A stretch of DNA of 64,000 nt. Origin: a bacterium. Lineage in GTDB: Bacteria; CAIWAD01. The DNA lies in assembly GCA_030429345.1 (NCBI GenBank), contig JAUIFJ010000009.1, forward strand, positions 86,035 to 150,034, given 5' to 3'. The translations under genes were made by a program, and so were the position numbers. Below are positions 38,275-57,904 of the stretch, piece after piece. Every line of letters begins with the position of its first letter. The first letter of the stretch is position 1. Below the pieces are notes generated by a model. The model saw only the letters and a program-made list of their open reading frames with translations, ran no database searches and was not told the origin of the DNA.

Positions 38275-39492
38275 ATGAACGTTCTCATGCTCTCCCCGGG
38301 CTTTCCCGTCGAACAGCCCTTTTTCACCCGCGGCCTGGCCCGGCGCGGACACCATGTCATCGGCCTGGGCGACCAGCCGCAGCATGACCTTCCCCCGGTG
38401 GCGAAGGAAAGCCTGGCCGCCTATGTGCAGGTGGCCAGCTTCACGGACGAGGAGCGGGTGCTCGCGACGGTGGCCGACATCCACCGCAAGGCACACATCG
38501 ACCGCGTCGAGTGCACCTGGGAGCCCTACATGGTCTTGGCTGCCCGCATGCGCGAGATGCTGGGCCTGCCCGGAATGACCGTCGCGGAAACCATTCCCTT
38601 CCGCGACAAGGAACAGATGAAGCGCGTGCTCGACCGCAAGGGCATCCGCACACCGCGGCATTTCAGCACGACCCAGGCAAAGGGCGTGCGGGAGGCTGCC
38701 GCGGAAATCGGCTATCCGATCTGCGTCAAGCCGATTGCCGGCGCCGGCTCGGCGGACACCTACCGGGTCGACAGCGCCGAGCAGCTGGAAGAGATCCTGC
38801 CGCTGCTCGGCCATGTGCCGGAAGTCAGTGTCGAGGAGTTCATCGAGGCCGACGAGTATACCTTCGACACGGTCTGCGTCGGCGGCGAGATCAAGTATTT
38901 CAATATCTGCCGCTATCGTCCTCGGCCGCTGATCGGCAAGACCAACGAATGGATCAGCCAGCAGACCGTCGCCATGCGAGATGTGATGCACCCGGACCTG
39001 GAGTCCGGCCGGCAGATGGGCCAGGCCGTGATCCAGGCCCTGGGCTTCAAGGACGGATTCACCCACATGGAATGGTACCGCCAGGCAAGCGGCGAGGCCG
39101 TCTTCGGGGAGATCGCCGCGCGGCCGCCCGGAGCGAACACGGTGGACCTGATGAACTTCGCCAACGACTTCGACGTGCACGAAGGCTGGGCCGAGGCGGT
39201 CACCGAAGGCTCCTTCAGCCAGCCGATCCGCCGCAGCTACAACGCGGCAAGCCTCTTCAAGCGGGCCCAGGGCCAGGGGCGGATCCGCCACATCGAAGGG
39301 CTGGACGCCCTGATGGCCGACTACGGCGAGCACCTCTGCGTGGTCGACCTGCTGCCTGTTGGCGCACAGCGGCGGAACTGGAAGCAGACCCTGCGCTCCG
39401 ACGGCATGATCATCGGGCGGCACCCGGACTATGCCACCCTCTGCGAGATGATGGACGACATCGGCATCCGCCTGCAGATCTACGCCGAGTAG
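38275..39492 (+). CDS. ATP-grasp ligase, paralogue A of the amide-ligase cluster
   Basis: The protein has 405 residues from the ATG at 38275. The N-terminal pre-ATP-grasp Rossmann-like part begins MNVLMLSPGFPVEQPFFTRGLARRGHHVIGLGD. FRDKEQMKRVLDRKGIRTPRH marks the start of the ATP-grasp region, GYPICVKPIAGAGSADTYRV the ATP-binding loop and lysine, VSVEEFIEADEYTFDTV the adenine-side strand, and THMEWY plus FGEIAARPPGAN the metal-binding acidic residues. Such enzymes join a carboxylate to an amine via an acyl phosphate. It is clearly homologous to the genes at 44739 and 46269. The next gene, an N-formylglutamate-amidohydrolase-family enzyme, follows 21 bp downstream on the same strand. Confidence 0.88.
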   Translation: MNVLMLSPGFPVEQPFFTRGLARRGHHVIGLGDQPQHDLPPVAKESLAAYVQVASFTDEERVLATVADIHRKAHIDRVECTWEPYMVLAARMREMLGLPGMTVAETIPFRDKEQMKRVLDRKGIRTPRHFSTTQAKGVREAAAEIGYPICVKPIAGAGSADTYRVDSAEQLEEILPLLGHVPEVSVEEFIEADEYTFDTVCVGGEIKYFNICRYRPRPLIGKTNEWISQQTVAMRDVMHPDLESGRQMGQAVIQALGFKDGFTHMEWYRQASGEAVFGEIAARPPGANTVDLMNFANDFDVHEGWAEAVTEGSFSQPIRRSYNAASLFKRAQGQGRIRHIEGLDALMADYGEHLCVVDLLPVGAQRRNWKQTLRSDGMIIGRHPDYATLCEMMDDIGIRLQIYAE

Positions 39493-39513
39493 GCGGGAAG
39501 CGTGAGACAAGCC

Positions 39514-40452
39514 ATGAGCCTGCCGGAAGGAATCCGCTCCATCGATGGCGTCTGCGAGCTGCAGAGCCATGCAAGCCCCGGCGCCGAAGACCGCCGCCCG
39601 GACCCGTTCATCGAGCTGCCGCACGGGGCGACCCGGCGCTCCGACTACGACCGGCTGCGCGCCCGGCTCTCGCCGGAGCTGCCTCCAGACCTGATCGACT
39701 ACTTCTTCGTCAACACGGATGTCGGTTCCTGGGAGTACGCCACGCAAGTGGCCCGGCAACTGACGAAATCCGCGGCCGCGGGTGCGCCACTGAAGGTGCT
39801 GGTCGCGCGCTGCCTGGTTCCGCGGGCCTTCATCGACACCAACCGCGTGATCCAGGCCGGCAGAAGCGAGGCGAAGGAGGCCGGCCTGAGCACGGCCACG
39901 GCCGAGTACATTCGCGAAGAGGCGGATGCCCGCCTGCTGCACACGCTGCACGCGCAGTATCACGCCGTCGTCGAGGCGGCCTATGACTGGATCTGCGGCG
40001 CGGGCGGCCAGGCCATGGCGGCGCATACCTATGCTCCGCGCTCGATCGAGATCGATTCCTACGACGAGGGCATCGGCAGGGCCCTGAGGCGGGCCTATGA
40101 GCCGGAGCAGTACGGGACGTGGAAGAAGCGCCCCGCCATCGACATCATCAGCGAGGATCCGGAAGGAAAGGACCTGGCGCCCCGGGAACTGGTGCAGGCC
40201 CTTCGAAAGGAATTCGACGCGCAGGGAATCGAGGCCGTCGAGAACGGCGTCTACTGCCTGCACCCGGTCTCGATGGCCTACCACTACGCGGCCCGCTATC
40301 CGGGCCAGGTGCTGTGCCTCGAAGTATCACGCGATCTGCTGGCGGAGCCCTTCTCCCCCTTCGAGGAGATGGCGATCAGCGAGCACAAAGCAGCACGCAT
40401 TGCCGCGCCCATCGCGGCGGCCTACAGGGACATCCTTTCCGCGCGCGTGTGA
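39514..40452 (+). CDS. N-formylglutamate amidohydrolase-family enzyme
   Basis: About 312 residues; ATG at 39514 is used, although a GTG at 39502 is in frame and equally possible. The family (PF05013) motifs are present: FIELPHGATRRSDYD carries the first metal histidine, FVNTDVGSWEYA follows, and VPRAFIDTNRVIQ is the conserved D-x-N-R. The C-terminal half contains GGQAMAAHTYAPRSIEIDSYDE and ISEHKAARIAAPIAAAY. In histidine degradation this family (HutG type 2) removes formyl groups, but no hut gene is nearby. In the ligase cluster it may trim N-acyl or terminal residues from a product (inference). It converges with the esterase gene 31 bp away. Confidence 0.8.
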   Translation: MSLPEGIRSIDGVCELQSHASPGAEDRRPDPFIELPHGATRRSDYDRLRARLSPELPPDLIDYFFVNTDVGSWEYATQVARQLTKSAAAGAPLKVLVARCLVPRAFIDTNRVIQAGRSEAKEAGLSTATAEYIREEADARLLHTLHAQYHAVVEAAYDWICGAGGQAMAAHTYAPRSIEIDSYDEGIGRALRRAYEPEQYGTWKKRPAIDIISEDPEGKDLAPRELVQALRKEFDAQGIEAVENGVYCLHPVSMAYHYAARYPGQVLCLEVSRDLLAEPFSPFEEMAISEHKAARIAAPIAAAYRDILSARV

Positions 40453-40483
40453 TCCAACAGCCTATGCAGGGTTCCAGACCGTA

Positions 40484-41260
40484 TCAGCCGCCCAGCGCCT
40501 GCAGGTTCTCCTGCACGTACTTGGGCAGCATTTCGCGCCAGGTCGGCCAGTCGTGGGGCCAGTGCGCGTCCCAGACATCCACGCGGTTGGGAATGCCCTT
40601 GCCGCCCAGCACCTCCGCCACGCGCCAGGATTCCTCCGGGTTCTCGTTGTCGCCCCCGCCGCAGGCCAGCAGCACATGGCGCTGCCGCAACCGCTCCAGG
40701 TGATCGCCCTCCAGCCCGGGCACGAAGAGCAGCGGGGACTGGTGGTGGAACTCCTCGTACCACTGGCCTTCCAGCCACTTCTGCAGGTCATAGGTCCCGC
40801 TCATGCAGATGGCGCGGCTGAAGACCTCCGGGTGGCGGCAGATCGAGACCAGGGCGTTGTAGGCGCCCACGGAAGCGCCGGCGGTCAGGATCTCGATGTG
40901 CTCGCTGTTGCAGTCCTGCTGGATCAGCCGCACGACTTCGTGTCTCACGAAGAGATCGAACTGCTGCTGGATCCAGACCCGGTGCGCCACGTTCGGCTCG
41001 TTGATCCAGGTCCGCCCGTTGACGCTGTCCACCGAGTAGACCTTGAGCCGCCCCTCGCGGATGAAGGGCGCCAGACCCTGGATCAGGTAGAAGCGCTCGA
41101 CCTCTTCGGCGTCTCCGCCGGCCGTCGGGAAGAGCAGCAAGGGCACGCCGTAATCGCCCCAGTGGACGATCTGGGCATGCGTCTGCAGATGCTCCGAATG
41201 CCACCAGTGGACCTGCTTCAGCGAGGCCGTGTGCGCGTCAAGATATTGTGTGTCACTCAT
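40484..41260 (-). CDS. Alpha/beta-hydrolase esterase, stand-alone domain
   Basis: This 258-residue cytosolic protein belongs to the esterase D / putative-esterase group (PF00756). The nucleophile elbow is ILTAGASVGAYNALV (G-x-S-x-G). The acidic residue probably lies in LLACGGGDNENPEES, and the histidine in DAHWPHDWPTWREMLP. The opening EHLQTHAQIVHWGDYGVPLLLFPTAGGDAEEVERF is typical of a conserved family often annotated only as 'esterase'. Substrate unknown. It is one of two such hydrolases in the ligase cluster, 50 bp downstream of ATP-grasp B on the same strand. Confidence 0.85.
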   Translation of the reverse strand: MSDTQYLDAHTASLKQVHWWHSEHLQTHAQIVHWGDYGVPLLLFPTAGGDAEEVERFYLIQGLAPFIREGRLKVYSVDSVNGRTWINEPNVAHRVWIQQQFDLFVRHEVVRLIQQDCNSEHIEILTAGASVGAYNALVSICRHPEVFSRAICMSGTYDLQKWLEGQWYEEFHHQSPLLFVPGLEGDHLERLRQRHVLLACGGGDNENPEESWRVAEVLGGKGIPNRVDVWDAHWPHDWPTWREMLPKYVQENLQALGG

Positions 41261-41310
41261 GAAGGTCTTTCCCGTGCTCCTGGTCCTTGTCGGACTTCCG
41301 ACTCTTCTTT

Positions 41311-42555
41311 CTAGTACTCGCCATCCGGGTGCGTGTCACGCCACTTCTGGATGCGCCCCCAGAAGAGCTCGGTGAACTCCTCGATCTCGTGCTCGGGGAA
41401 GAGCACCGCCACCTTGCGGCGGATCGTCTCCTTCGCCTTCTCCGTGGCGAAGAAGGCGTGTGCCTGCTCGCCCAGGTGGGGCAGGTGCTTGTCGCAGAAC
41501 TCGCGGAATCGCTCCGTCTCCATGCGCTCGTGGCCGATGGCGGCATAGCGCCTCAGCTTCTCGCGGTAGGGAAGGTCCTCCCTGGCAATGCGGAAGTAGG
41601 GTTCCCATTCCAGGTTCTGCCGCATGGTCTTTCCCGTGGCGGCGCAGAAGGTGGACCAGCGGATGTTGGCCATGACCAGCCAGGGAAAGAAGAAGTGCAG
41701 CGAGGTGACCTGGGAATCGGGGCAGGCGTTGGCGAAGTCGATCGGATGCCAGACGCCGTCCTTGTGCAGGGCCTCGCAGGAATTGAAGTCCCAGCCGAAG
41801 AAGGAATTGATCGTCATCGTCATGTCCTCGAGCAGGGATTTCTCCTCCGCGTCGACGAACTGCTCCTTCATTTCATAGCGGTCGTGGAGCGGCGCTCCCG
41901 GGTCGTAGCTGATCAGGCGGAACTGCGGCCCGATGCCCACGCAGCGCACGAAGCGGTCGAAGCCGTCCACCGAGCGCTGCAGATGCATCACGAGCTTGCC
42001 GCTCTCCTCGTACTTGGCGCGCAGGGTCTCCGCGTCGTCGATGCGGCTGACGCCCTTCCAGGCGCCGCCGTCGTAGGGCTTCATGAAGAGCGGATAGCCG
42101 ACCTTGTCGCCGATCTCCCCCAGGTCGAACATTCGCGCGTAGCGCTTCAAGGTCACGTCGAGGTCGGCGTGCTCGTCGTAGGACTTGGGCGGGACCATCC
42201 AGGTCTTCGGCACGGGCATGCCCAGGCGCATCATGGCGCAGTAGGAGGTCTGCTTCTCCATGGACTGCAGCGACCAGGGATTGTTGTAGACATAGAGCCC
42301 GTCCATCAGCACGGACTTCTTGATCCACTCGCGGCTGGTGTGATACCAGTGCGTCAGCCGGTCGATCACCAGGTCGTAGGGGCAGTCCTGCTGCAGGTCG
42401 TAGGGCTCGATGGAGACCGTCTCCACCTCGAAGCGCACCGTGTCCCCGCCGACGGGCAGGGCCAGGTCGAGGGTCTTCATGATCTCGGCATAGCAGATCG
42501 GCCAGCAGAGGTCGCCGCCCAGGGACAACCCGATTTTCCGTGTTACATCAGCCAT
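41311..42555 (-). CDS. RimK-like ATP-grasp ligase, gene B of the amide-ligase cluster
   Basis: The protein has 414 residues from the ATG at 42555. The sequence differs from the three other ATP-grasp proteins of the cluster and is closer to RimK-type ligases. KQTSYCAMMRLGMPVPKTWMVPPK begins the ATP-grasp region, GYPLFMKPYDGGAWKGVSRIDD holds the ATP-binding lysine and glycine loop, and LVMHLQRSVDGFDRFVRCVGIGPQFRLI the next strands. FNSCEAL and PIDFANACPDSQ carry the metal ligands. The C-terminal 110 residues form an extra helical part. It probably forms a different amide bond from A, C and D. It starts 51 bp downstream of the two-domain esterase gene. Confidence 0.85.
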   Translation of the reverse strand: MADVTRKIGLSLGGDLCWPICYAEIMKTLDLALPVGGDTVRFEVETVSIEPYDLQQDCPYDLVIDRLTHWYHTSREWIKKSVLMDGLYVYNNPWSLQSMEKQTSYCAMMRLGMPVPKTWMVPPKSYDEHADLDVTLKRYARMFDLGEIGDKVGYPLFMKPYDGGAWKGVSRIDDAETLRAKYEESGKLVMHLQRSVDGFDRFVRCVGIGPQFRLISYDPGAPLHDRYEMKEQFVDAEEKSLLEDMTMTINSFFGWDFNSCEALHKDGVWHPIDFANACPDSQVTSLHFFFPWLVMANIRWSTFCAATGKTMRQNLEWEPYFRIAREDLPYREKLRRYAAIGHERMETERFREFCDKHLPHLGEQAHAFFATEKAKETIRRKVAVLFPEHEIEEFTELFWGRIQKWRDTHPDGEY

Positions 42556-42606
42556 GGCTTCCCCGTTTCTCCTGTCTTGCCTCACAGCGCCGCCCGGCGC
42601 CGGATT

Positions 42607-43743
42607 CTAGAGATAGCTTTCCCAGAGGGGCCCGGGAAAGAGCCGGCTCAGGCCCTTGCGCAGGCGGTCCCGCCAGTTTTCCCAGTTGTGCCCGTCGTAG
42701 GCCTCTTCGTAGGTGGTCTCGATGCCGTGCTTCTGCAGGAAGGGCACCAGCGAACGGTTCTCGTAGATCAGCGATTCGAACATGCCGCAGCTGACGAAGG
42801 CGCGGTTGACCGGCCTGCCTGGCGCCTTCCGAAAGGCGTTCATGAAGGCCACGACCGGGTCGAAGACCGGGCTGCGCGAGTGTCCGCCGATATCCGTGAA
42901 GGCGAAGGACCCGGACTGCAGCAGCAGCGAATCGAAAGCGCCGGGGTAGAGCCAGGCCGTCGACAGCGAAGCGACTCCGCCGAAGCTGGCGCCCATGAGG
43001 CTGCGCCCGGATCCTTCCGGAATCAGCGAATAGCGCTGCTCCAGGACCGGGACCAGCTCTTCGACGATGTGCCGCGCGTGGCGCTCGTCGTGGGCGTACT
43101 CGCGCAGGCGGTCGACCGGATTCGTCAGGGCGACGACCAGCGGCGAGACTTCACGCCGGGCGATCAGGTTGTCGAGCGCGTTGTCCAGCTGCGAGTAGCG
43201 AAGGTAGTCCTCGCCGTCGTGCACGACAAGCAGGCGATGGCGCCGGTAGGGGCGGTAGCCGGCAGGCAGGTAGACGCCGACCTGCCGCTCGCCCCCGAGA
43301 GCCTCGCTGCGGAGCGCGAAGCGCTCGATCCGCCCCTGCCTGACGGATGGATCACGGAAAGTCCAGTCGGGACGCTCGTAGTCGCCGCCGTGTGTCACCG
43401 AATTGCCGCCGAAGGGATCGTTGGCCACCTGCTCGTTGAGCGGATCGAAAATCCATTCCTCGTGGCCGTCCCGCGTGACGCCGAACTTGTACTCGATGCG
43501 CGAACCGGCGGGAAAATCGGCCTGCAGCACCCAGAGATCGGTGCCCTCGACCCGCTTCAGCGGAAGGCTGGAGGGCAGGCCGTAGATCCAGTGTCTTACG
43601 GCCACCTGCTCGGCCTCGCCGACGAAGGCGAAGGTCACGGAGCTGCCGTCCACATAGGGGAAGCTGACCTTCTGCAGGATGCGTTCCACATCCGCGGGGG
43701 CCGGTTCTGCGGGAAGGCTCTCGAAGAGGCGCGGGAGGCTCAT
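42607..43743 (-). CDS. Two-domain esterase (E-set plus alpha/beta hydrolase), enterochelin-esterase-like
   Basis: The protein has 378 residues from the ATG at 43743, overlapping the upstream stop by 4 bp. Residues about 25-125 form an early-set/CBM48-like beta sandwich (SSVTFAFVGEAEQVAVRHWI, WVLQADFPAGSRIEYKFGV, WIFDPLNEQVANDPFGGNS). Residues about 130-370 form an alpha/beta hydrolase with nucleophile SLMGASFGGVAS, and histidine in EEAYDGHNWENWRD. The order matches Fes-type enterochelin esterases and related acyl hydrolases. It is cytosolic. In this cluster it could hydrolyse or transfer an ester or thioester of the ligase product (inference). Confidence 0.85.
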   Translation of the reverse strand: MSLPRLFESLPAEPAPADVERILQKVSFPYVDGSSVTFAFVGEAEQVAVRHWIYGLPSSLPLKRVEGTDLWVLQADFPAGSRIEYKFGVTRDGHEEWIFDPLNEQVANDPFGGNSVTHGGDYERPDWTFRDPSVRQGRIERFALRSEALGGERQVGVYLPAGYRPYRRHRLLVVHDGEDYLRYSQLDNALDNLIARREVSPLVVALTNPVDRLREYAHDERHARHIVEELVPVLEQRYSLIPEGSGRSLMGASFGGVASLSTAWLYPGAFDSLLLQSGSFAFTDIGGHSRSPVFDPVVAFMNAFRKAPGRPVNRAFVSCGMFESLIYENRSLVPFLQKHGIETTYEEAYDGHNWENWRDRLRKGLSRLFPGPLWESYL

Positions 43744-44684
43744 GAGGCGAACTCCCGGACCTGGCCGTCGACTCCGAGCTGCCTCGCCGGGCCGGGTCCG
43801 CAGGAATGCCAGCGCCCGGCGCGGCGCTCCAGCACCGTGCCTTCGTCGAAGAGCACGCACTGGAAGGGCTCGAAGCGGCGGGCGAAAAGCTGGACGCGAA
43901 TCGGGTCCTCGAGCGCCAGGCGGCTGTCCCCCTCGGGCAGGGGCTGAATGGAGCCGCAGAGCCCCATGCCGGCGCGCAGCACTTCCGGATTGCCCTTGCC
44001 CTGCGGCGGGAAATCGTGGTAGAAGACCAGGCGTTCGGCCAGGGCCATGGCGCCGCCGGACCAGGCGATCACGGGGACGTCGCCGACGTGCTGCAACACG
44101 CCGAAGAGGCGCAGGCGGTTCAGCAGGATCGCCACGTGTCCCCCGGCGATGAGCAGCGCTCCCGAGCGGGAGAGGATCTCCGCCAGGTCCTTGCGGTGAG
44201 CGGCGAGCAGCGGACGCTCGGACAGGCGGAGGCGCGAGTCGTAGTCCTCGATCAGGCCCGTGACACGCTGCAGGTATTCGCTGTCCAGCCGGCGGATCAT
44301 GTCGACGGCCGAGGCGCGTTCCCCTTCCAGGGAGATCCCTGCCGGTCCAGGCAGGAGCAGCTCGCGGGCCGCGTCGAGCAGGTGGCCCAGGCGGGCGTTG
44401 TATACATCCCGCAAATGGCGCAGCACATCCTGCCGCTCGCGCAGCAGGCCGATCAGTTCCGTGTCCTCCGCGAAGAGGTGCTCCGAGCGGGCGAAGAGCT
44501 CCAGGTTGCGGCAGGGCCCGCCGATCGCCTCGCGCAGCTCCTGGTCCTCGCCCTCCTCCGTTTCCCAGCCGGCGGTCGTGTAGGCCGCCGGGGCGCGCAC
44601 TTCGACACGCTCGAGCAGGCGGATCAGCGAGGCGTAGGCCGGCTGCGGTCCGAGCAGGAACAGCCTGTCGCGCGGTTCAGCCAT
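43740..44684 (-). CDS. Protein with peptidase-S51-like (cyanophycinase-type) segment
   Basis: The protein has 314 residues from the ATG at 44684. The first 160 residues are helical (ELREAIGGPCRNLELFAR, LRHLRDVYNARLGHLLDAARELLL) and unassigned. Residues about 170-260 contain GALLIAGGHVAILLNRLRLFGVLQHVGDVPVIAWSGGAMALAERL-type sequence, in which GG-x-x-x-x-L and AWSGGAMAL resemble the S51 pattern (GGNQ..L; G-x-S-A/G-G-A) of dipeptidase E and cyanophycinase. The expected catalytic histidine may be in VFYHDFPPQGKG. The S51 link is a pattern match only. Placed between ligase and esterase genes with a 4-bp overlap downstream, it probably acts in the same pathway. Confidence 0.55.
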   Translation of the reverse strand: MAEPRDRLFLLGPQPAYASLIRLLERVEVRAPAAYTTAGWETEEGEDQELREAIGGPCRNLELFARSEHLFAEDTELIGLLRERQDVLRHLRDVYNARLGHLLDAARELLLPGPAGISLEGERASAVDMIRRLDSEYLQRVTGLIEDYDSRLRLSERPLLAAHRKDLAEILSRSGALLIAGGHVAILLNRLRLFGVLQHVGDVPVIAWSGGAMALAERLVFYHDFPPQGKGNPEVLRAGMGLCGSIQPLPEGDSRLALEDPIRVQLFARRFEPFQCVLFDEGTVLERRAGRWHSCGPGPARQLGVDGQVREFAS

Positions 44685-44738
44685 GGGCCGCTCCCGTCGG
44701 GATGTCCGCGTGGAGTCTCGCTGGAACAAGGGCGTGGA

Positions 44739-45962
44739 TCACTGGGCATGCACCTTCATCGTCCGGCCGACCTCGTCGAGCATGTGCCGCAGGTGGTCGA
44801 AATCCTCGTGTTTCATCCGTACCCAGGCATTGGCCATGTAGCCCGCCTCGACGCCCTGGGTCGGCGTGCCGGGATCGGGCAGGTGGCAATCCGTGATCCA
44901 TTCGCCGAAGCGCTCCCGGATCTCCCCGACGCCGCTGTAGCCGGCGATGCGGCCGTCGCGATCCGGCCGCAGGGCGATGATGCCGGCGGCAAAGCGCCGC
45001 GAGGGCTGCTGCGTCGTGTTGCCCTGCGTGACGGCCCGGGCCCACTGGTGATACAGGTCCATGTCGTTGGCCATGTTGTAGAGGTCCCAGGCGCGGACGC
45101 CGGGCGGCCGGCAGCCGATCTCGGAGAACTTGAGCCCCTTCGGCCCGAAGAACCATTCCATGTGCGTCGCCGCGGTGCCGATCTTCAGCGCCTCGATCAC
45201 CTGGCGGCCCATCCGCTTGACCTGGTCGTACTCGTCGACGCTGTCGATGCGGTTGGTCGTCACGAACTGCGGCGAGATCCAGCGGTGACGCATGGCCTCG
45301 AGCACATTGGGAAAGTAGTGGGTGATGAATTCGCAGGCGACCCTGCCGTCGATGGTGAGCGTGTCGTAGAAGCCCTCGTGGCCCTCGATGAACTCCTCGA
45401 CGGCCACATTGCCGCCTTGTCCCACATGGGAGGCGCGCAGGGCGCGCTCGAGCTCGTCCTCGCTTGTCACACGCCATGTGCCGGAGGCGCCGGCGCCGTC
45501 CCGCGGCTTGATGATCAGCGGAAAGCCCACTTCCCGCGCGAAGGCCAGGATCTCCTGGGCGTCCCCGCTGCCGATGGACTGGGCGCAGGGCACGCCGGCC
45601 TCGCGCAGCACCTGCTTCATGGAAGGCTTGTCGCGACAGAGCCAGGAGGTCTCGACGGAAATGCCGGGAATCGTGCAGGCCTCGCGCACCTTGGCCACGG
45701 TCATCACGTGGGCCTCGATCGTCGCCTCCAGGCGATCGACCCAGAGCTTGCCCTGCACGAAGCGGACGGCCTCGGTCAGGGCGCGCTCATCGGTGACATT
45801 GGGCAGGTGGATGTAGTCGAAAAGCCAGGATTTCAGCTCCTCGTCAAGACCCTCCTTCGGGGTCTCGCCGATGGCGATCACATTGGCTCCGGCCTGTTTC
45901 AGGCCGCGGACGAATTCGCGCTGGTTGCGCGGAAAGAACGGCTCGACAAAGATGACGTTCAT
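44739..45962 (-). CDS. ATP-grasp ligase, paralogue C of the amide-ligase cluster
   Basis: This 407-residue protein starts MNVIFVEPFFPRNQREFVRGLKQAGANVIAIGE, parallel to genes A and D. CRDKPSMKQVLREAGVPCAQS, GFPLIIKPRDGAGASGTWRV, VAVEEFIEGHEGFYDTLTIDG, THMEWFFGPKG and FSEIGCRPPGVRAWDLYN match A and D position by position, with the ATP-lysine, glycine loop and metal-binding Glu residues kept. The C-terminal domain (GIIALRPDRDGRIAGYSGVGEIRERFG) is also shared. It is the first gene of the minus-strand half of the cluster; gene D lies divergently 306 bp upstream. Confidence 0.88.
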   Translation of the reverse strand: MNVIFVEPFFPRNQREFVRGLKQAGANVIAIGETPKEGLDEELKSWLFDYIHLPNVTDERALTEAVRFVQGKLWVDRLEATIEAHVMTVAKVREACTIPGISVETSWLCRDKPSMKQVLREAGVPCAQSIGSGDAQEILAFAREVGFPLIIKPRDGAGASGTWRVTSEDELERALRASHVGQGGNVAVEEFIEGHEGFYDTLTIDGRVACEFITHYFPNVLEAMRHRWISPQFVTTNRIDSVDEYDQVKRMGRQVIEALKIGTAATHMEWFFGPKGLKFSEIGCRPPGVRAWDLYNMANDMDLYHQWARAVTQGNTTQQPSRRFAAGIIALRPDRDGRIAGYSGVGEIRERFGEWITDCHLPDPGTPTQGVEAGYMANAWVRMKHEDFDHLRHMLDEVGRTMKVHAQ

Positions 45963-46268
45963 GGCTTCTCTCTGCTGGGTTCAGGAACTGCTGTCCGGGG
46001 CCAAGAATGTGCCACTGCCGCCACGCTGGTGCAAGCCTTCCCGGTCCTCATGACAGACTTGCGCCCGGCCGCTGCGGGTGGTACATACGGGTGCGGGTGC
46101 CCTTCCTTCTCACTTCTCACGCGGAGATGCAGAGGGCGCGGGGGCAGCCCGTTCATGCAGCCAGGCGGATCCGGCAGAGCGCCGGTTCCATCACACAGAC
46201 CATCGTGCAGCTGCGGGAGTCTCCTCGCCCATGAGGGCTCCGGCCTGCCGCCAAGGGGTTGTCCAGCC
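45963..46268. other. Divergent intergenic region between ATP-grasp genes C and D
   Basis: 306 bases separate the two divergent ligase starts and must hold both promoters. I see no confident -35/-10 pair, riboswitch or large hairpin. A poor candidate coding stretch on the plus strand looks like composition. AAGGGG lies 11 bases before the gene D start, and GAGAGAAG before gene C. Confidence 0.45.
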
Positions 46269-47495
46269 ATGCAGAAGATCGTCTTTGTCGCTCCCTATTT
46301 CATGGAGGCCACCCTGCGCTTCGTGCGCGCGGCGGCGCGGGTGCCCGATTGCCGGCTGGCGCTGGTCAGCTGCGATCCGGCCGACAAGCTGCCGCCGGAT
46401 CTGAAGCAGGCCCTGGCGGCCCACTACGCCGTTCGCGACACCTCGACGGAACAGCTTCTGCACGGCGTGCAGCAGGTGGGGCGGCAGCTGGGCGGGATCG
46501 ATGCCCTGCTCGGAATGCTGGAGCAGATCCAGGTCTCGCTGGGGGAGATTCGCGATGCGCTCGGGCTGCGCGGCATGGGCGCGGCAGCGGCCCGCAATTT
46601 CCGCGACAAGGCCCTGATGAAGACGGTCCTCCGCGAGGCGGGCGTGCCCTGCGCGCGACACCGGGCGGTGACCACGGTCGAGGCGGGCATGGCCTTCGCC
46701 GCCGGGACGGGCTTTCCGCTGATCGTCAAGCCGCTGGACGGCGCCGGCGCCAAGGGCACCTTCCGCTGTGAGACAGCGGAGCAGCTGCAGGAATGCCTGC
46801 GGCATTCGCGGCCTTCGGAAGCCAATGTGCTGGTGCTGGAAGAGTTCATTCAGGGCAAGGAACGCTCCTTCGACAGCGTCTGCCTGGACGGGAAGATCCT
46901 CTGGTCCTCGATCTCGCACTACTTCCCGGGGCCGCTGGAAGTCGTGCGCGAACCCTGGATCCAATGGTGCGTGATGATTCCGCGGGAGGCGGACGATCCG
47001 CAGTCCGGGGACATCCGCGGTGTAGCACAGCAGGCCCTGACGGCCCTGGGCATGGAAACCGGCCTGAGCCATATGGAATGGTTCCTGCGCGAGGACGGCA
47101 GCCTGGCCGTCTCCGAAGTGGGCTGCCGCCCTCCCGGCGCCCAGTTCACCTCGCTGATCTCCTGGGCGCACGACTTCGACCTCTACCAGGCCTGGGCCGA
47201 TGTGCTGATCCACCAGCGCTTCCAGGCCCCGGAACGCAAGTTCGCCGCCGGAGCCGCCTACCTGCGCGGCATGGGCCGGGGCCGTGTCACGGCCGTCCAC
47301 GGCCTCGACCGCATCGCGAAGGACTTCGGCGGGATCGTCGTCGAGGCCAGCATTCCGAAACCCGGCATGGCCCCGACAGGAAGCTACGAGGGCGAAGGCC
47401 ACATCCTTGTGAGACACCCGGAGACGGAAGTGGTGAAGGAGGCGCTCAGGCGGATCGTGAGCACGGTGCGGGTGGAGCTGCGCGAAGACGCCTAG
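46269..47495 (+). CDS. ATP-grasp ligase, paralogue D of the amide-ligase cluster
   Basis: The protein has 408 residues from the ATG at 46269. It parallels A and C: MQKIVFVAPYFMEATLRFVRAA, FRDKALMKTVLREAGVPCARH, GFPLIVKPLDGAGAKGTFRC, LVLEEFIQGKERSFDSVCLDG, LSHMEWFLREDG and VSEVGCRPPGAQFTSL keep the ATP-binding and metal sites. The C-terminal domain (KFAAGAAYLRGMGRGRVTAVHGLDRI) is the part copied in the pseudogene at 49107. It is followed by 236 gene-free bases. By family it forms an amide or ester-like bond at the cost of ATP; substrates are unknown. Confidence 0.88.
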   Translation: MQKIVFVAPYFMEATLRFVRAAARVPDCRLALVSCDPADKLPPDLKQALAAHYAVRDTSTEQLLHGVQQVGRQLGGIDALLGMLEQIQVSLGEIRDALGLRGMGAAAARNFRDKALMKTVLREAGVPCARHRAVTTVEAGMAFAAGTGFPLIVKPLDGAGAKGTFRCETAEQLQECLRHSRPSEANVLVLEEFIQGKERSFDSVCLDGKILWSSISHYFPGPLEVVREPWIQWCVMIPREADDPQSGDIRGVAQQALTALGMETGLSHMEWFLREDGSLAVSEVGCRPPGAQFTSLISWAHDFDLYQAWADVLIHQRFQAPERKFAAGAAYLRGMGRGRVTAVHGLDRIAKDFGGIVVEASIPKPGMAPTGSYEGEGHILVRHPETEVVKEALRRIVSTVRVELREDA

Positions 47496-48901: not shown

Positions 48902-49106
48902 GGCAGTGCCATTCCGCTCTGCCGATCCTGCGTCCAGGGGACGCGCAATATCGGCGTTATTCTACCGGATGGTACGCAGCAAACAGCTACGAATCAAGGC
49001 CACGGGCACAGGGAAAGTTTGAAGGCTTCCTGAGGCTTTGGTCAGCCATGTTTTGCCTGAATCAAATTCTGAGATTGGTTCCACGATCAAATACACTATT
49101 GCTATT

Positions 49107-49383
49107 CCACCAGCGCTTCCAGGCCCCGGAGCGCAAATAGGCCGCCGGCGCCGCCTACCTGCGCGGCATGGGCCAGGAGCGTGTCACGGCCGTCCACGGC
49201 CTCGACCGCATCGCGAAGGACTTCGGCGGCATCGTCGTCGAGGCCAGCATTCCGAAACCCGGCATGGCCCCGACAGGAAGCTACGAGGGCGAAGGGCACA
49301 TCCTTGTGAGACACCCGGAGACGGAAGTGGTGATGGAGGCGCTCAGGCGGATCGTGAGCACGGTGCGGGTGGAGCTGGGGTAG
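49107..49383 (+). pseudogene. 3' fragment copy of the ATP-grasp gene D
   Basis: Bases 49107-49377 align without gaps to 47210-47480 of the ATP-grasp D gene (constant offset 1897). By eye I count 11 differences in 271 bases, about 96% identity. An in-frame TAG replaces a Phe codon (at 49138-49140), and Arg-Gly becomes Gln-Glu; several other changes are silent. Nothing homologous to the N-terminal two thirds of gene D is present, so it cannot make a working ligase. It arose by a recent partial duplication with about 1.6 kb (AhpD and ZIP genes) between the copies. Confidence 0.92.
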
Positions 49384-49430: not shown

Positions 49431-49892
49431 CTATCGCGCCAGGCGAGCGTCGAAGCGAAAGTCCTTGCAGGATGCGATGATGACCTGCGCAGTGGCCGGG
49501 TGCAGCGGATTGATCAGGTAGTTGGATTCTTCCGGAATCACGATCGAGGGCACCTGTAGCACAGGGGATCGTTTCGATTCCAGCCAGTCCGTCCCCATGT
49601 CCTTGAGCAGTGGATTCTCGTCGAAGACCTGCCAGTTCCGCGGCAGGGTATCACGGGGAAGGACTTCGATCTCCAGATCCTCCGGCAAGTCCACTTCCTG
49701 TTGCACAAGGTCCGCTGGCGCCAGATCCCGGTCCACATGGACCAGTACTTCCAGCGCGGCAAGGGCCAGCGACTGGCTGGTGTATACGACAGGATGGCCC
49801 CGCCGATGCCAGCGGCCGGAAGCGAAGAGACCGCCCTTGCCCGAAAGGGAATCTGCAGCGTAGGCCTTGCGACAGATTCTCCAGACGCGCAT
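49431..49892 (-). CDS. RES-domain toxin
   Basis: This 153-residue protein matches the RES family of NAD+-degrading toxins. MRVWRICRKAYAADSLSGKGGLFASGRWHRRGHPVVYTSQSLALAALEVLVH-type sequence holds the conserved Arg (RVWRI and GRWH), Tyr and Glu (ALEVLVH) positions, and SNYLINPLHPATAQV the C-terminal N-P-x-H motif. RES toxins such as MbcT or ParT break down or transfer from NAD+/NADP. The start overlaps the antitoxin stop by one base (TGATG), the usual antitoxin-first order. Confidence 0.92.
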   Translation of the reverse strand: MRVWRICRKAYAADSLSGKGGLFASGRWHRRGHPVVYTSQSLALAALEVLVHVDRDLAPADLVQQEVDLPEDLEIEVLPRDTLPRNWQVFDENPLLKDMGTDWLESKRSPVLQVPSIVIPEESNYLINPLHPATAQVIIASCKDFRFDARLAR

Positions 49893-50344
49893 CAGCTATG
49901 GATGCCGTAATTCAGGCGATCCAGCAGCTCCTCCACCTGGCGCTCGCCGATTTCCGTATCCAGCAGGGAGATGGGGGTTTCTCCGGTCAGGGCCTGGTTC
50001 TCGCGATTGAGCCAGGTGCGCGCTTTCTCGATGCTGCCCAGGACATGGGAAGCCTGAAGCAGTAGGCGCACGATGCGGTAGAGGCGATCCGATTCAATCG
50101 GCGAAAGCACCTGGCTGGCCTTGCGTCGCGCAAGGGTTCGGGAGGCGACGCCCAGCAACTCCGCCAGACCGGCGGCACTGAAGTGCAGGGCCGAGCTTAC
50201 GGACTCGAAGGCGGCATAGGGAAATCCGCTGCGCAGGGCGGCTTTCAGCTCCCGAGGGGTTCGAATCCTTCGCTCGAAGACCCTGGGGCCACCCAGAAGC
50301 GCGACGACCTGGCGCGTATGCTGATCTATCTTTGTGGATGCCAT
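49892..50344 (-). CDS. Xre/MbcA/ParS-type (DUF2384) antitoxin
   Basis: This 150-residue protein matches RES-partner antitoxins. The middle part (AGLAELLGVASRTLARRKASQVLSPIESDRLYRIVRLLLQASHVLGSIEKARTWLNRENQALTGETPISLLDTEIG-type sequence) is the DNA-binding helix-turn-helix followed by the DUF2384 C-terminus, with the signature W-L-N-R-x-N-x-A-L-x-G-x-x-P. It should neutralise the RES toxin and repress the pair. No clear ribosome binding site lies before the ATG at 50344; repeats upstream cover that region. Confidence 0.92.
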   Translation of the reverse strand: MASTKIDQHTRQVVALLGGPRVFERRIRTPRELKAALRSGFPYAAFESVSSALHFSAAGLAELLGVASRTLARRKASQVLSPIESDRLYRIVRLLLQASHVLGSIEKARTWLNRENQALTGETPISLLDTEIGERQVEELLDRLNYGIHS

Positions 50345-53161: not shown

Positions 53162-56100
53162 CTACGGGTTCGTAATCGCATAAACCATGTCCCCCACGAA
53201 CCGTTTGAAGGAAACGTTTTGGACAAAATGCTTGTATACTTCCGTGTCATCCTTCAGCAGTAACTGCATCACCTTTGCCAGTGCCTGGTCGTGTGCCATT
53301 CGCGCCGTATGAGGCGTGTTCGCTTTGGCATTTTGATAGGCTTCGTCCGCTGCGACCTTTGGTGCAATGTCCTCGCGAATGCGTTTCGCAACCCGATCCG
53401 CATCCTGGAACAGAGTACCGAACTGCTCGTTGAATGACTTCAATATGTTGCTTAGCCGATCCAACTCGGGCTCACTTTCCCCCCCGCCCGATCCGGGTTG
53501 CAGGGGATCTATCTCCCCCTCGTCGTCCGCTAGCGCGATCTTCATGGCCGCTTTCTTTTCAACACGGTAGCTGTCCATGTCGATGGCTTCGAGAATCCCC
53601 TTAGCAAGGTCTTCTTCCTTTGGAGCCGGCAGCTTGGGCGTGAGCAGATTCAGGAAAATCGAGAGCTTCTCCCACTCAGCGTTATTGTACGGTATCACCG
53701 AGGCGAGAAAGGCATAGGTCCGGCAGAACATCTTGGCACTGCCTTTGAACTCCACTTGTGCGTCTTCATCCAGCTGGCCGATGTAGACCGCCACACAGGC
53801 ATCCAGAATCGGGTCCAGTTGATCTCGCTCCGCGCCGTCCAGAAAGAGCTCTACCAATTGCTGCACTTGCTCAGGGGAATACACCTGGGCGGCGTCCAGT
53901 ACCCCTTTCAGGTCATGAAGCTTGTTGGGGTCTGTTTCATCGGCCAGCAATGTGGTACGGTAGTAGTCCTGGAATGCCAGGGTGATGGCTGCGCTATTGT
54001 TCTGGAAATCAAGAATAAAACAGTCGTGCTTCTTCGGATGGGCGCGGTTGAGCCGGGACAGCGTCTGCACGGCCCGAATGCCCGAAAGCGACTTGTCTAC
54101 ATACATTGTATGCAATAGTGGTTCGTCGTAGCCGGTCTGGAACTTGTCGGCACAGATCAGGAAACGGAAGGGGTCGCCCTGTATCTTTTGCGCGATTTCG
54201 CCGCTTGAGAATTCGTTGAGCGAAGTTTCGCTCACACTAGCGCCTTTGTATACATGGTCCCCCGAGAAAGCGACAATCGCCTGATAGGGACTCTTGCGCT
54301 CTTGTAGATAGGACTTGAAAGCGTGGAAGTACTGAATCGCCCGTTCGATGCCGCTGGTGATCACCATGGCGCGGGCCTGGCCACCGATCTTTGTGGTCGC
54401 CATTACCTGCTCGTGGAAGTGATCCACCATGATCTCGGCCTTGAGCCGGATCGCATGATCATGGCTCTCCACATAGCGGCGGAGCTTTTTGCGTGCCTTC
54501 TTCGTATCGAATTCCGGGTCGTCTTCGATTTTCTTGACCAGCTTGTAATAACTCTCCACTGGCGTGTAGGCCTTCAAGACATCGAGGATAAAACGCTCAT
54601 CGACGGCCTGTTTCATAGTATAACTGTGGAAGGGCCTGTGTTTGATCTTGCCCTCAGAGTCAGGCGGCAGTGGCTCTCCGAACATTTCCAGGGTCTTGTT
54701 CTTGGGCGTCGCCGTGAAAGCGAAATAACTGGCGTTGCTCAGCATCTTACGCGCCGTCATGCGCTTCTCGAGGGCCGCGTTCACCGTATCTTCCGGGTCC
54801 GCCCCCGCTTCATCGTCTTCCTCGACATGCTGCCCTGAACCCCTGAGTGCCTGGCTCATCGCCGCCGTGGTCTTGCCGCCTTGGCTAGAGTGCGCCTCGT
54901 CGATCACGATGGCGAAGGTCTTGCCGCCCTCCATAGCGATTTCATCGAGGATGACGGGGAACTTCTGCACGGTCGAGACAATGATCTTCTTTCCCTGCTC
55001 GATGAACTTGCGCAGGTCTCCGGAACGCTTGGCGTGGCCCACCGTCGAGCTCACCTGCATAAACTGCTTGATGGTCGCCTGGATCTGGCTGTCGAGGATG
55101 CGTCGGTCCGTCACCACGATGACCGAGTCAAAAACTTCCTGGCCCTCCCGCTTTAGGCCGATGAGCTGATGCGACAGCCAGGCGATCGAGTTGGATTTGC
55201 CGCTGCCCGCGGAGTGCTGTACCAGATAGCGCTTGCCCGCGCCATGAGCTTTCACATCGGTCAAGGCCTGTCGCACAAGACTCAACTGGTGATAGCGAGG
55301 CCAGACCTGCTTGCGCTTCTTTCTGCCGGTGCGCGCATCCTTCTCGACGACGATCTGCGCGTAGTTCTCCAGGATATCGGTCAGCCCCGCCGGCGTGAGC
55401 ACTTCTTTCCAGAGGTAGTCGGTCTTCAGCCCCTGAGGATTGGGCGGGTTGCCCGCGCCATCCTTGTAGCCCTTGTTGAAGGGCAGGAACCAGGAGCCCT
55501 TTCCACGCAGCTCGGTACACATGCGCACTTCGCTGTCGTCAACGGCGAAATGGACTACGCAGCGGCCGAACTCGAATAGGCGCTCGCGCGGGTTACGATC
55601 GCGCTTGTATTGCTGGATAGCATCTTCCACCGTCTGTTTGGTCAAGCTGTTCTTCAGCTCGAATGTGGCGATGGGCAAGCCATTGATGAATAAGCCTAGG
55701 TCAAGGGCGCGGCGTGTTTCATCCATACTGTAGGCAAGCTGCCGCGTAACCGAAAAGCGGTTTTCCGCATGCAGTTTCTTCGCCTTGGCATTGCCCGGAG
55801 ACGGCGTGCCGTAGAAGAGATCGAAATGCAGCGGCCCGTGAGACACTCCCTTGCGCAATACATCAATGACGCCTCGCTTGCCGATCTCGCCCGAAAGGCG
55901 CACCAGGAACTTGAGGCGGTTGATTTCCTTGGTGTCCTTCTCGTCGGCCATCGCAAGCTTCTCGAAAGCCTGCGGCTGGGTGCTGCGTAGGAAGGCGAAA
56001 AGCTGTGGAACATCCAGAGCATGGGCGCGGTCGAAATCCTGCGGGCTGCCGGCGGTGTAGCCGGTACCGCCATAGGGTGGCGGCCGCTCGGCAACCTGAT

Positions 56101-56185
56101 TCGGCACGACGGCGAGACCATCGCTACCGGTCATCTGCCTCATGATAAGGGATTCGAGGCCCTTCTCGCTTGTATCCGTCGTCAT
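53162..56185 (-). CDS. hsdR: Type I restriction enzyme R subunit
   Basis: This 1007-residue protein is full length for HsdR. The N-terminal nuclease domain has GLFINGLPIATFELKNSLTKQTVEDA, with the E-x-K catalytic residues. The SF2 motor includes VQHSAGSGKSNSIAW (Walker A), IVIDEAHSSQGGK (DEAH box), YFAFTATPKNKTL (motif III) and RAVQTLSRLNRAHPKKHDC (motif VI). It cuts DNA after ATP-driven translocation when unmethylated HsdS sites are bound. It begins 220 bp downstream of the AlbA_2 gene and is probably transcribed with or after it; a set of short repeats lies in that gap. Confidence 0.95.
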   Translation of the reverse strand: MTTDTSEKGLESLIMRQMTGSDGLAVVPNQVAERPPPYGGTGYTAGSPQDFDRAHALDVPQLFAFLRSTQPQAFEKLAMADEKDTKEINRLKFLVRLSGEIGKRGVIDVLRKGVSHGPLHFDLFYGTPSPGNAKAKKLHAENRFSVTRQLAYSMDETRRALDLGLFINGLPIATFELKNSLTKQTVEDAIQQYKRDRNPRERLFEFGRCVVHFAVDDSEVRMCTELRGKGSWFLPFNKGYKDGAGNPPNPQGLKTDYLWKEVLTPAGLTDILENYAQIVVEKDARTGRKKRKQVWPRYHQLSLVRQALTDVKAHGAGKRYLVQHSAGSGKSNSIAWLSHQLIGLKREGQEVFDSVIVVTDRRILDSQIQATIKQFMQVSSTVGHAKRSGDLRKFIEQGKKIIVSTVQKFPVILDEIAMEGGKTFAIVIDEAHSSQGGKTTAAMSQALRGSGQHVEEDDEAGADPEDTVNAALEKRMTARKMLSNASYFAFTATPKNKTLEMFGEPLPPDSEGKIKHRPFHSYTMKQAVDERFILDVLKAYTPVESYYKLVKKIEDDPEFDTKKARKKLRRYVESHDHAIRLKAEIMVDHFHEQVMATTKIGGQARAMVITSGIERAIQYFHAFKSYLQERKSPYQAIVAFSGDHVYKGASVSETSLNEFSSGEIAQKIQGDPFRFLICADKFQTGYDEPLLHTMYVDKSLSGIRAVQTLSRLNRAHPKKHDCFILDFQNNSAAITLAFQDYYRTTLLADETDPNKLHDLKGVLDAAQVYSPEQVQQLVELFLDGAERDQLDPILDACVAVYIGQLDEDAQVEFKGSAKMFCRTYAFLASVIPYNNAEWEKLSIFLNLLTPKLPAPKEEDLAKGILEAIDMDSYRVEKKAAMKIALADDEGEIDPLQPGSGGGESEPELDRLSNILKSFNEQFGTLFQDADRVAKRIREDIAPKVAADEAYQNAKANTPHTARMAHDQALAKVMQLLLKDDTEVYKHFVQNVSFKRFVGDMVYAITNP

Positions 56186-56202
56186 CGCGCGTCCTCTTCG
56201 TC

Positions 56203-56412
56203 GATCAAGTACCCATCAATTAGATTCTTAAGCCCTATCCATCTATGAATCAAATGCTTATGAATTGAGCTTGCCTGTCAGGATGGTCTTCGATCAAGTA
56301 GCCATCAAACAACCAGCAAACAAACGATACAGTCACAACTCTTGGAATATCTATTACTTGCAACAGCATGTCGGGATGAATCTACTTTCTGGAGCAAGCA
56401 ACCATCAAACAA
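56203..56412. repeat. Three degenerate 18-21 bp direct repeats before hsdR
   Basis: Copies are GATCAAGTACCCATCAAT at 56203-56220, GATCAAGTAGCCATCAAACAA at 56292-56312 and GAGCAAGCAACCATCAAACAA at 56392-56412, spaced 89 and 100 bp. The third reaches into the end of the AlbA_2 gene. On the minus strand the first two would read Phe-Asp-Gly-Tyr-Leu-Ile if translated, so they could be remnants of a repeated coding segment or regulatory sites. Confidence 0.6.
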
Positions 56413-57904
56413 TCCCTTCTGAAGCTGGCGCTGGCGCAGCCCAGTAGGGCAAGTAGCTCCGAATGCGACTTCCTACTTCTGGATCCGCAATCACGATCAA
56501 ACCTGAATCGACAGCCTCAGCAAGCAGCCGGGATGCCGTAGCGCTGTTCTTGTCATCAATGCCAAGGCGCTGGCGAAGCGTGGCATTGGTCATCGACTGC
56601 CGGGTAACATAGCGCAAGCACGCATGGAGGTAGCAGGCCCGTACCCGATCGGTCTTGTTCATTGCGGAAAGAGCTTTGTGAGCAAAAAGGACAACCCTCG
56701 TAGCCTCTTTCAGGCTTTCAAAAAGCGGGGCTGGGAGCTGAAAGAATTCGACCTGAAAAACAACTTTGTCTATGCCGCTGCCGCGCTCTTCGCAGATACG
56801 GAATCGGCGAAGCAATGAAGCCAACGCCTCATTGCGCGATCGCGGCGGTGTATCCACAAAGCGCTGGGTGTCCACCAATGGTTGCCCTGGGTTAGTGATT
56901 TCAATGCGGTCATCGAAGATCTCAACCATGGGCCCCGCGCCGGTTACGAAGAAGTCTTGATGAATGAGCGCATTAGCCACCAGCTCGCGCACCGCAAGCT
57001 CGGGGAACATGGGAACGCTCTTCCGCAGAGCTTTGTCGATGACTTCATTGGCGGGCAATAATCCATTGATGTATCCCACCAGCCCTTCGAAGCCGCTGGC
57101 GTATCCTTTGGCCCCCTCTTGCTCCTTCTGCGTTTCGGTCCGTCCGATGCCGCGATACTGGATCACACGAACTGCTTTGCGCCGCAAGCCGTGAAAAGCA
57201 TCCAGCCGCTTGGCGAAGAGGACGGCTCCAAGGTTTGTGATATCCCAGCCGCCGGCCTCGCTCCTGCGGATCAGCCGGTCATCCGCCAGTGCTTCCAGAA
57301 TGCCCCGCCGGTTGGCCGGCAAGGACCGCTCCAGGAGTTCGAAGTATGCCGGGTAGTCCAGCAGCCGAAGCACTTCGTCGTCTGTAACACGCTCGGAAGC
57401 GATGCCGTCTTCAAAGGGCGTCTGGTCAAAGATGCGCCAAAGCTCTCGCTCCTTCTCGGGAAAGTCCTTCAGCTTCTTCTTGTAGCTCCCGATGCGGATG
57501 AACTCCTGCCCCGAAAAGCGTACCGGATGTCGAGTTGCTCGGGCAATCTCCAGCAGGACGACACGATGGCCGTCTACATCCACCGTGAACAAACGAAACT
57601 CAAGCTTCGGCTCCAGCAGCCGCAGCAGCCAGTTCTCCAACTGCTCCTGGCCGACGCGGGTCGCGTGTGGATCGAATGTGGTTCCAACGATTGTGCGGTC
57701 ATCATCGCGCACGCCCCAGAGCAAATACGCAAAGGCCTTCCCCACCAATGCCGCAGAATTGGCAAGCGCAGATATGTACTCACCAATTGCTGATGGATCA
57801 CAGTTGTCGACCTTGAACTCGACCCACTCGGTTTCCCTAGGCAGAGTACAGAGCTCACGCACCAGACCCACGAGAAACTCAGTGGAGCGACCACTGCTAT
57901 TCAT
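56405..57904 (-). CDS. AlbA_2 (Schlafen-type) domain ATP-binding protein
   Basis: This 499-residue protein carries an N-terminal AlbA_2 domain (ETEWVEFKVDNCDPSAIGEYISALANSAALVGKAFAYLLWGV), a middle region, and an HATPase_c_4-type domain (AVRELVANALIHQDFFVTG, DDRIEITNPGQPL, EERGSGIDKVV). The C-terminus has a winged-helix-like part (RQSMTNATLRQRLGIDDKNSATASRLLAEAVDSGLI). Such proteins are often annotated as transcriptional regulators or as phage-defence accessory genes. It overlaps the hsdS stop by 4 bp and so is part of the hsd operon. Confidence 0.88.
   Translation of the reverse strand: MNSSGRSTEFLVGLVRELCTLPRETEWVEFKVDNCDPSAIGEYISALANSAALVGKAFAYLLWGVRDDDRTIVGTTFDPHATRVGQEQLENWLLRLLEPKLEFRLFTVDVDGHRVVLLEIARATRHPVRFSGQEFIRIGSYKKKLKDFPEKERELWRIFDQTPFEDGIASERVTDDEVLRLLDYPAYFELLERSLPANRRGILEALADDRLIRRSEAGGWDITNLGAVLFAKRLDAFHGLRRKAVRVIQYRGIGRTETQKEQEGAKGYASGFEGLVGYINGLLPANEVIDKALRKSVPMFPELAVRELVANALIHQDFFVTGAGPMVEIFDDRIEITNPGQPLVDTQRFVDTPPRSRNEALASLLRRFRICEERGSGIDKVVFQVEFFQLPAPLFESLKEATRVVLFAHKALSAMNKTDRVRACYLHACLRYVTRQSMTNATLRQRLGIDDKNSATASRLLAEAVDSGLIVIADPEVGSRIRSYLPYWAAPAPASEGIV

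Follow-up and report, generated by a model that had tools for sequence, protein, structure and literature searches.

An ATP-grasp ligase gene cluster recurring across bacterial phyla, with a dedicated glycogen-synthase-type GlgA in about half of the related loci

Several described systems resemble the locus reported here. Neighbourhoods of ATP-grasp amidoligases, in which several ligases stand with peptidases or hydrolases and no nonribosomal peptide synthetase (NRPS), are reportedly covered in the survey of Iyer, Abhiman, Burroughs and Aravind (2009, Mol BioSyst 5:1636; cited in PMC8939145). Other counterparts are cyanophycin synthetase with cyanophycinase, the pheganomycin-type ligase PGM1 and the graspetide ligases, and bacterial glycogen synthesis (GlgC-GlgA-GlgB). 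The locus lies in a stretch of 64,000 nucleotides, hereafter the window (contig JAUIFJ010000009.1, positions 86,035 to 150,034, assembly GCA_030429345.1), and consists of eight open reading frames (ORFs) at 38275-47495, all present and intact. As proposed in the initial annotation of the window, these neighbouring genes include four ATP-grasp ligases (G1, G4, G7 and G8; three recognised by Pfam, and G4 by AlphaFold2 fold matches) and two esterases of different architecture (G3 and G5). They further encode an N-formylglutamate amidohydrolase (FGase)-like enzyme (G2) and an S51-fold protein (G6). No NRPS, polyketide synthase (PKS), carrier protein or detectable precursor peptide was found at 38275-47495, as that annotation had stated.

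The cluster belongs with the ATP-grasp amidoligase clusters, and its link to glycogen synthase is new to the literature searched. No description of the gene set or of the GlgA link was found in that literature; the 2009 amidoligase survey lay outside this search, and a prior mention of the gene set there is possible. Similar to the cyanophycin system, ATP-grasp ligases stand alongside an S51-fold protein, but the cluster differs in lacking the CphA architecture, in the non-conserved S51 histidine and in a long helical insertion. Cyanophycin synthesis was rejected as an assignment, with a Mur-ligase domain in none of the eight proteins and cya_phycin_syn scores of 31-40 bits against a cut-off of 850. 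In some Gammaproteobacteria the cluster additionally includes a ligase that bears PGM1_C, and the fold of G4 resembles MdnB; unlike the PGM1 and graspetide systems, no precursor peptide was found. Relative to glycogen synthesis, the GlgA that accompanies the cluster keeps all tested E. coli catalytic residues and stands with GlgC or GlgB in some loci, but it forms its own clade, occurs beside an ordinary GlgA in many genomes and is placed among ligase genes.

A scan of genome contigs for G4 revealed 387 encoding stretches, from which 80 loci were kept, many on short contigs; locus counts refer to these 80. G5 was present in 71 of them, G6 in 64, G3 in 59, G7 in 45, G8 in 31, G1 in 30 and G2 in 10. 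The orthologues are found together repeatedly in Myxococcota, Acidobacteriota, Planctomycetota and Gammaproteobacteria, among other groups. In L061, which belongs to the culturable Paraliomyxa miuraensis SMH-27-4, the linked genes are G4, G5, G6 and G7. Among 235 Myxococcota genomes, including genomes with the genes on separate contigs, G4 was found in 71, G5 in 70, G6 in 72 and all three in 69, and all seventy-one genomes with G4 also possess G6. Fisher p values for the co-presence of G4, G5 and G6 in these genomes ranged from 1e-56 to 1e-60, uncorrected for relatedness. In 199 Acidobacteriota genomes, G4 and G6 were found in the identical six. Since homologues co-occur this widely, the eight genes appear to be part of one functional set, and on this comparative evidence the cluster is one unit, far beyond chance. 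Lack of co-occurrence had been named in the initial annotation as telling against its proposal; the neighbourhood search returned the opposite, with the families co-occurring widely across phyla. It is extremely improbable that these are unrelated housekeeping genes adjacent by accident. Gene order does differ from phylum to phylum, and many loci lack G1, G2 or G8, as such a reading would have it; nonetheless, G4, G5 and G6 occur together almost without exception in Myxococcota, as do G4 and G6 in Acidobacteriota. This pattern and the cross-phylum orthogroups speak against it, and for the G4-G5-G6 core the co-occurrence refutes it.

In other genomes the gene set exceeds the eight genes, with GlgA, a GCS2-CBS ligase, an AstE/AspA-type deacylase, GlgC and GlgB. 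The dedicated GlgA, the GlgC and GlgB links, the GCS2-CBS ligase and the exchange of FGase for an aspartoacylase-type enzyme are invisible from the window alone and were missed in its initial annotation. A GlgA gene was detected in 39 loci, mostly within a few tens of nucleotides of a ligase gene and usually abutting or overlapping it, and G7 is the ligase that most often abuts GlgA. These GlgA-ligase neighbours occur in Gammaproteobacteria, Myxococcota, Deltaproteobacteria metagenome-assembled genomes, Planctomycetota and Acidobacteriota, in varying arrangements. ORF clustering revealed as other recurring neighbours the GCS2-CBS ligase in 19 loci (more by tblastn), GlgC in 12 and GlgB in 4. 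In locus L065, the ligase, S51, esterase and RimK genes adjoin the series GlgA-ligase-PGM1-GARS-GlgC-GlgB. The apparent antisense families c9, c10 and c16 of the ORF clustering were discarded, as they look like opposite-strand shadows of real genes.

Phylogenetic analysis of 63 GlgA sequences recovered a clade with 100 bootstrap support that unites 35 cluster copies and one further copy, situated 26 kb from a G6 gene. When E. coli GlgA was included, this further copy grouped with 38 of the 39 cluster copies at a local support of 0.92. Outside the clade fall the second GlgA paralogues of these genomes, the GlgAs of genomes that lack the cluster, the reference GlgAs and E. coli GlgA. The cluster GlgAs keep K15, H161, R300, K305 and E377 (E. 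coli GlgA numbering), and in Myxococcota GlgA is present in 69 of the 71 genomes with G4 versus 93 of the 164 without it. By phylogeny and conserved residues, the cluster GlgA is a dedicated clade of glycogen-synthase-type glucosyltransferase found in about half of the related loci.

Our preferred reading, held tentatively, is that of one horizontally spread pathway inherited as a unit, which would make ligated amino acids that are joined to a glucan, or made together with one, in hosts with the dedicated GlgA. Sequence comparison shows co-inheritance across phyla, intact catalytic residues of the esterases and ATP-binding lysines of the ligases, the dedicated GlgA clade and the exchange of deacylases. 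The gene set probably builds one intracellular compound, possibly bound to an alpha-glucan. The ligases, with G4 as invariant core beside G7, G8 and G1, would add carboxylic, mainly acidic, amino acids successively via acyl-phosphate chemistry, and the two serine esterases G3 and G5 would transfer or release ester-linked intermediates. The FGase, or its AstE/AspA-type replacement, would strip an N-acyl group or a terminal residue off an acidic amino acid, and G6, possibly lacking ordinary peptidase activity, would bind or process an amide of Asp/Glu type. The product would remain intracellular, and where a host has the dedicated GlgA it would be joined to, or made with, the alpha-1,4-glucan of that enzyme. 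The acidic-amino-acid theme appears in the RimK-like, GCS2, FGase, AstE/AspA and S51 families. It is rather unlikely, though worth stating, that the cluster represents a widespread, undescribed class of alpha-glucan in at least four phyla, in which the glucan of the dedicated GlgA bears acidic amino acids or a short peptide attached by the ligases (peptidated glycogen or a peptide-primed glucan). If the preferred reading is true, amino-acid ligation is linked to bacterial alpha-glucan metabolism, a link absent from the literature searched. Four conserved ligases, two esterases, a near-obligate S51-fold partner and an own glycogen synthase would then point to one compound common to many uncultured bacteria, and the cluster offers a concrete, testable target.

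G1, G7 and G8 were assigned to the ATP-grasp ligases by Pfam and NCBIfam. Within the window they share 31-33% pairwise identity, and each falls into a separate cross-phylum orthogroup, with clade supports of 0.999 for G1 and 1.0 for G8, and G7 as the remainder of the tree. K112, K152, E269, E281 and R285 (G7 numbering), among them the ATP-binding lysines and metal-binding acidic residues, are kept in at least 95% of 105 sequences, and G7 is 60-76% identical across phyla. G4 has no Pfam match, and a profile search returned weak D-Ala-D-Ala ligase matches. Its AlphaFold2 model (pLDDT 75.5) matches the ATP-grasp structures Ddl, LysX, RimK and MdnB, and going by this model G4 is an ATP-grasp ligase. 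It is extremely conserved, with 62-76% identity across phyla. Formation of amide- or peptide-like bonds by several ligases in a cluster with no NRPS, carrier protein or precursor peptide would be the natural reading of these genes. RimK modifies ribosomal protein S6. The likeness of G4 to RimK and LysX would also suit a protein-modification system, in which G4 adds amino acids to a protein, e.g. a glycogen enzyme, and the resulting tag is edited by the remaining enzymes. This is quite improbable, as no conserved small carrier or target protein was found in the neighbourhoods, and two esterases and three further ligases would be left unexplained.

Similar to G4, G6 itself has no Pfam match, yet 15 of 20 members of its family match PF03575. 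All 18 PDB matches of the G6 model (pLDDT 91.3) at E <=0.001 are of S51, peptidase E or cyanophycinase type, and hhalign aligned G6 with E. coli PepE at E 2.3e-5; a phmmer search of PDB sequences with one S51 orthologue returned no useful match. By model, family matches and profile alignment, G6 is of S51 fold. Ser224 and Asp239 of G6, both kept, correspond to PepE Ser120 and Asp135, and the column of PepE His157 holds Glu266 in the hhalign alignment, while MAFFT puts this column a few positions away. Among 64 family members, Ser occupies its column in 49 and Asp in 61, the His column holds H in 24, D in 26 and Q in 7, and eight members lack a Ser or Cys nucleophile. The Ser-His-Asp/Glu catalytic set of peptidase family S51 is not found complete in G6. 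Since the catalytic His is not conserved, ordinary peptidase activity of G6 is not to be assumed. The initial annotation named an S51-like protein, and the fold agrees with this; a role as trimming peptidase is doubtful.

The S51 fold, which is that of cyanophycinase, and the presence of the storage enzymes GlgA, GlgC and GlgB also bear on another explanation, namely a nitrogen-and-carbon storage material. In this view the ligases would synthesise an amide polymer resembling cyanophycin, which the S51 protein would mobilise and which would be co-regulated with glycogen. We regard this as improbable, because the cluster has no cyanophycin synthetase architecture (ATP-grasp plus Mur-ligase), the S51 His is mostly replaced and the nucleophile is absent from the eight members mentioned.

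Both esterases, G3 and G5, match PF00756, and only G5 possesses an N-terminal Enterochelin_N/E-set domain. The candidate triads S130/E206/H236 of G3 and S253/E323/H352 of G5 are invariant in 57 and 67 aligned sequences, respectively; the acid member was identified from its conservation and position rather than from a structure. Cluster members of G5 constitute a family of their own, at 52-68% identity to the window copy. Enterochelin esterase and the CBM48-CE1 feruloyl esterases have the same two-domain layout and candidate Ser-Glu-His set as G5; however, siderophore or xylan genes do not recur near the cluster. Glucan binding by the E-set domain of G5 was set aside as an assignment, with only sub-threshold matches to CBM_20 (E 0.0065), CBM_48 (0.012) and AMPK1_CBM.

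The initial annotation placed G2 in the N-formylglutamate amidohydrolase family. The match to FGase PF05013 is marginal (E 2.3e-6), at 28.3 bits just under the cut-off of 28.9. FGase is present in 10 loci, the AstE/AspA-type deacylase (PF24827) in 8 and both together in none; a short AstE-like match in L066 overlaps GCS2 and was not counted. The AstE/AspA-type gene directly follows GCS2-CBS in L026 (14005-14916), L034, L018, L067, L069, L073, L075 and L078. The two folds are unrelated, and both enzymes act on N-acyl acidic amino acids. This common chemistry, with the mutual exclusion, hints that they replace each other at one step, with an acidic amino acid as substrate. The type of deacylase agrees in part with the G4 tree: the AstE/AspA type of L026 and L034 stands within an otherwise FGase clade, and the window copy is of FGase type within a planctomycete G4 clade. 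At L026:14929-17743, the G1 ligase is separated from the AstE/AspA-type gene by two ORFs (373 and 555 aa) that lack a Pfam match and are kept in L034.

Five genomes of the phylum of the window were in the set, and G4 was found in this one only. In the G4 tree, the window sequence groups with five Planctomycetota sequences at full support. The 16S gene of the window genome is approximately 75% identical to two planctomycete 16S genes, so the host is unlikely to be a planctomycete. With this identity set against the planctomycete G4 clade, horizontal acquisition, whatever its direction, is the simplest reading. The phylum of the window probably acquired the cluster horizontally, and the nearest relatives of the cluster are planctomycete.

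Several points weigh against the preferred reading of a glucan-linked pathway. The genome of the window, 98% complete, possesses a single GlgA, on contig C92 and outside the dedicated clade, and GCS2-CBS was not found in this genome; a glucan is therefore not strictly required. The acceptor here would come from the single housekeeping GlgA, or would not be a glucan. L009, the closest relative with a long flank, has no GlgA in its 21 kb. The position of GlgA beside a ligase gene could reflect shared storage regulation and not a shared product, the matches of the G5 E-set domain to starch-binding families fall short of significance, and family-level hints on the substrate are weak.

These absences would suit a different product, a free small peptide-like metabolite or cofactor, to which GlgA adds one or a few glucose units in some hosts only. 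We consider this possible, though doubtful. Four ligases, two esterases and a deacylase are enough for stepwise assembly, L-amino-acid-ligase-like paralogues are typical of dipeptide synthesis as known from the family, and the window genome and several RimK-only or GlgA-less loci have no dedicated GlgA nearby. However, in Gammaproteobacteria GlgA sits with GlgC and GlgB, as in a real polymer pathway, and for a secondary metabolite the genes are very highly conserved. Neither an exporter nor a resistance gene recurs in the neighbourhoods of the 80 loci by ORF clustering, in agreement with the initial annotation, which saw no exporter. Its proposal of an amide-forming cluster was right in outline, and its secondary-metabolite flavour is doubtful; the set recurs in several phyla and is not clearly a niche cluster of that kind. 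The exact set was unfamiliar to it, as it is to the literature searched, but is not peculiar to this genome.

On contig C92 (L091:11004-15562), the genes next to the sole GlgA of the window genome encode a GalT-like protein, a ROK-type kinase and a PF00756 esterase; the GalT-like and ROK-type names are a reading of the translations, and the esterase is a Pfam match.

Table 1. Features of the locus and its edge, with positions in the window
Feature	Position	Strand	Description
G1	38275..39492	+	ATP-grasp ligase PF18130 + PF02222, orthogroup G1, 405 aa
G2	39502..40452	+	FGase-like PF05013, just under gathering score; start GTG 39502 or ATG 39514
G3	40484..41260	-	alpha/beta-hydrolase esterase PF00756; candidate triad S130/E206/H236
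G4	41311..42555	-	RimK-like ATP-grasp ligase; ATG at 42555, alternative GTG at 42585
G5	42607..43743	-	esterase with N-terminal enterochelin-esterase/E-set domain; candidate triad S253/E323/H352
G6	43740..44684	-	S51-fold (peptidase E/cyanophycinase) protein, long helical insertion; residue numbering from TTG start at 44729
G7	44739..45962	-	ATP-grasp ligase, orthogroup G7
G8	46269..47495	+	ATP-grasp ligase, orthogroup G8; divergent from G7
G7/G8 divergent intergenic region	45963..46268	.	306 nt, probable promoter region for both arms
Stray copy of G8 3' end	49100..49377	+	278 nt, 95% identical

In the locus, G1 and G2 on the forward strand are followed by five genes on the reverse strand (G3 to G7) and by G8 on the forward strand. 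Internal gaps of the reverse-strand operon are approximately 50 nt or less; G6 and G5 overlap by 4 nt, and touch or overlap in many relatives. No conserved small ORF was found in the G7/G8 and G8/CMD gaps, the only two large enough, and the rest of the genome was not searched. A cluster for a ribosomally synthesised and post-translationally modified peptide (RiPP), such as a graspetide, was rejected, as the small ORFs of these gaps have no conserved counterpart. Anti-phage defence was also rejected, since none of the eight proteins match PADLOC models.

In the Acidobacteriota loci L022 (6878-9949) and L059 (6885-9953), a Reg_prop/Y_Y_Y sensor histidine kinase gene lies between the E-set esterase and RimK genes, and is a possible regulator. 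In the window, the 3' end of G8 (47203-47480) and its copy 1.9 kb downstream (49100-49377) form a 278-nt direct repeat of 95% identity, which points to an earlier duplication or recombination event at the cluster edge. Directly downstream of the cluster (49431-50344) lies a RES-domain toxin and Xre-MbcA-ParS antitoxin pair. Further on, at 53162-63709, a Type I restriction R subunit (HSDR_N, SWI2/SNF2) is followed by more large reverse-strand ORFs, and this region is perhaps a defence island.

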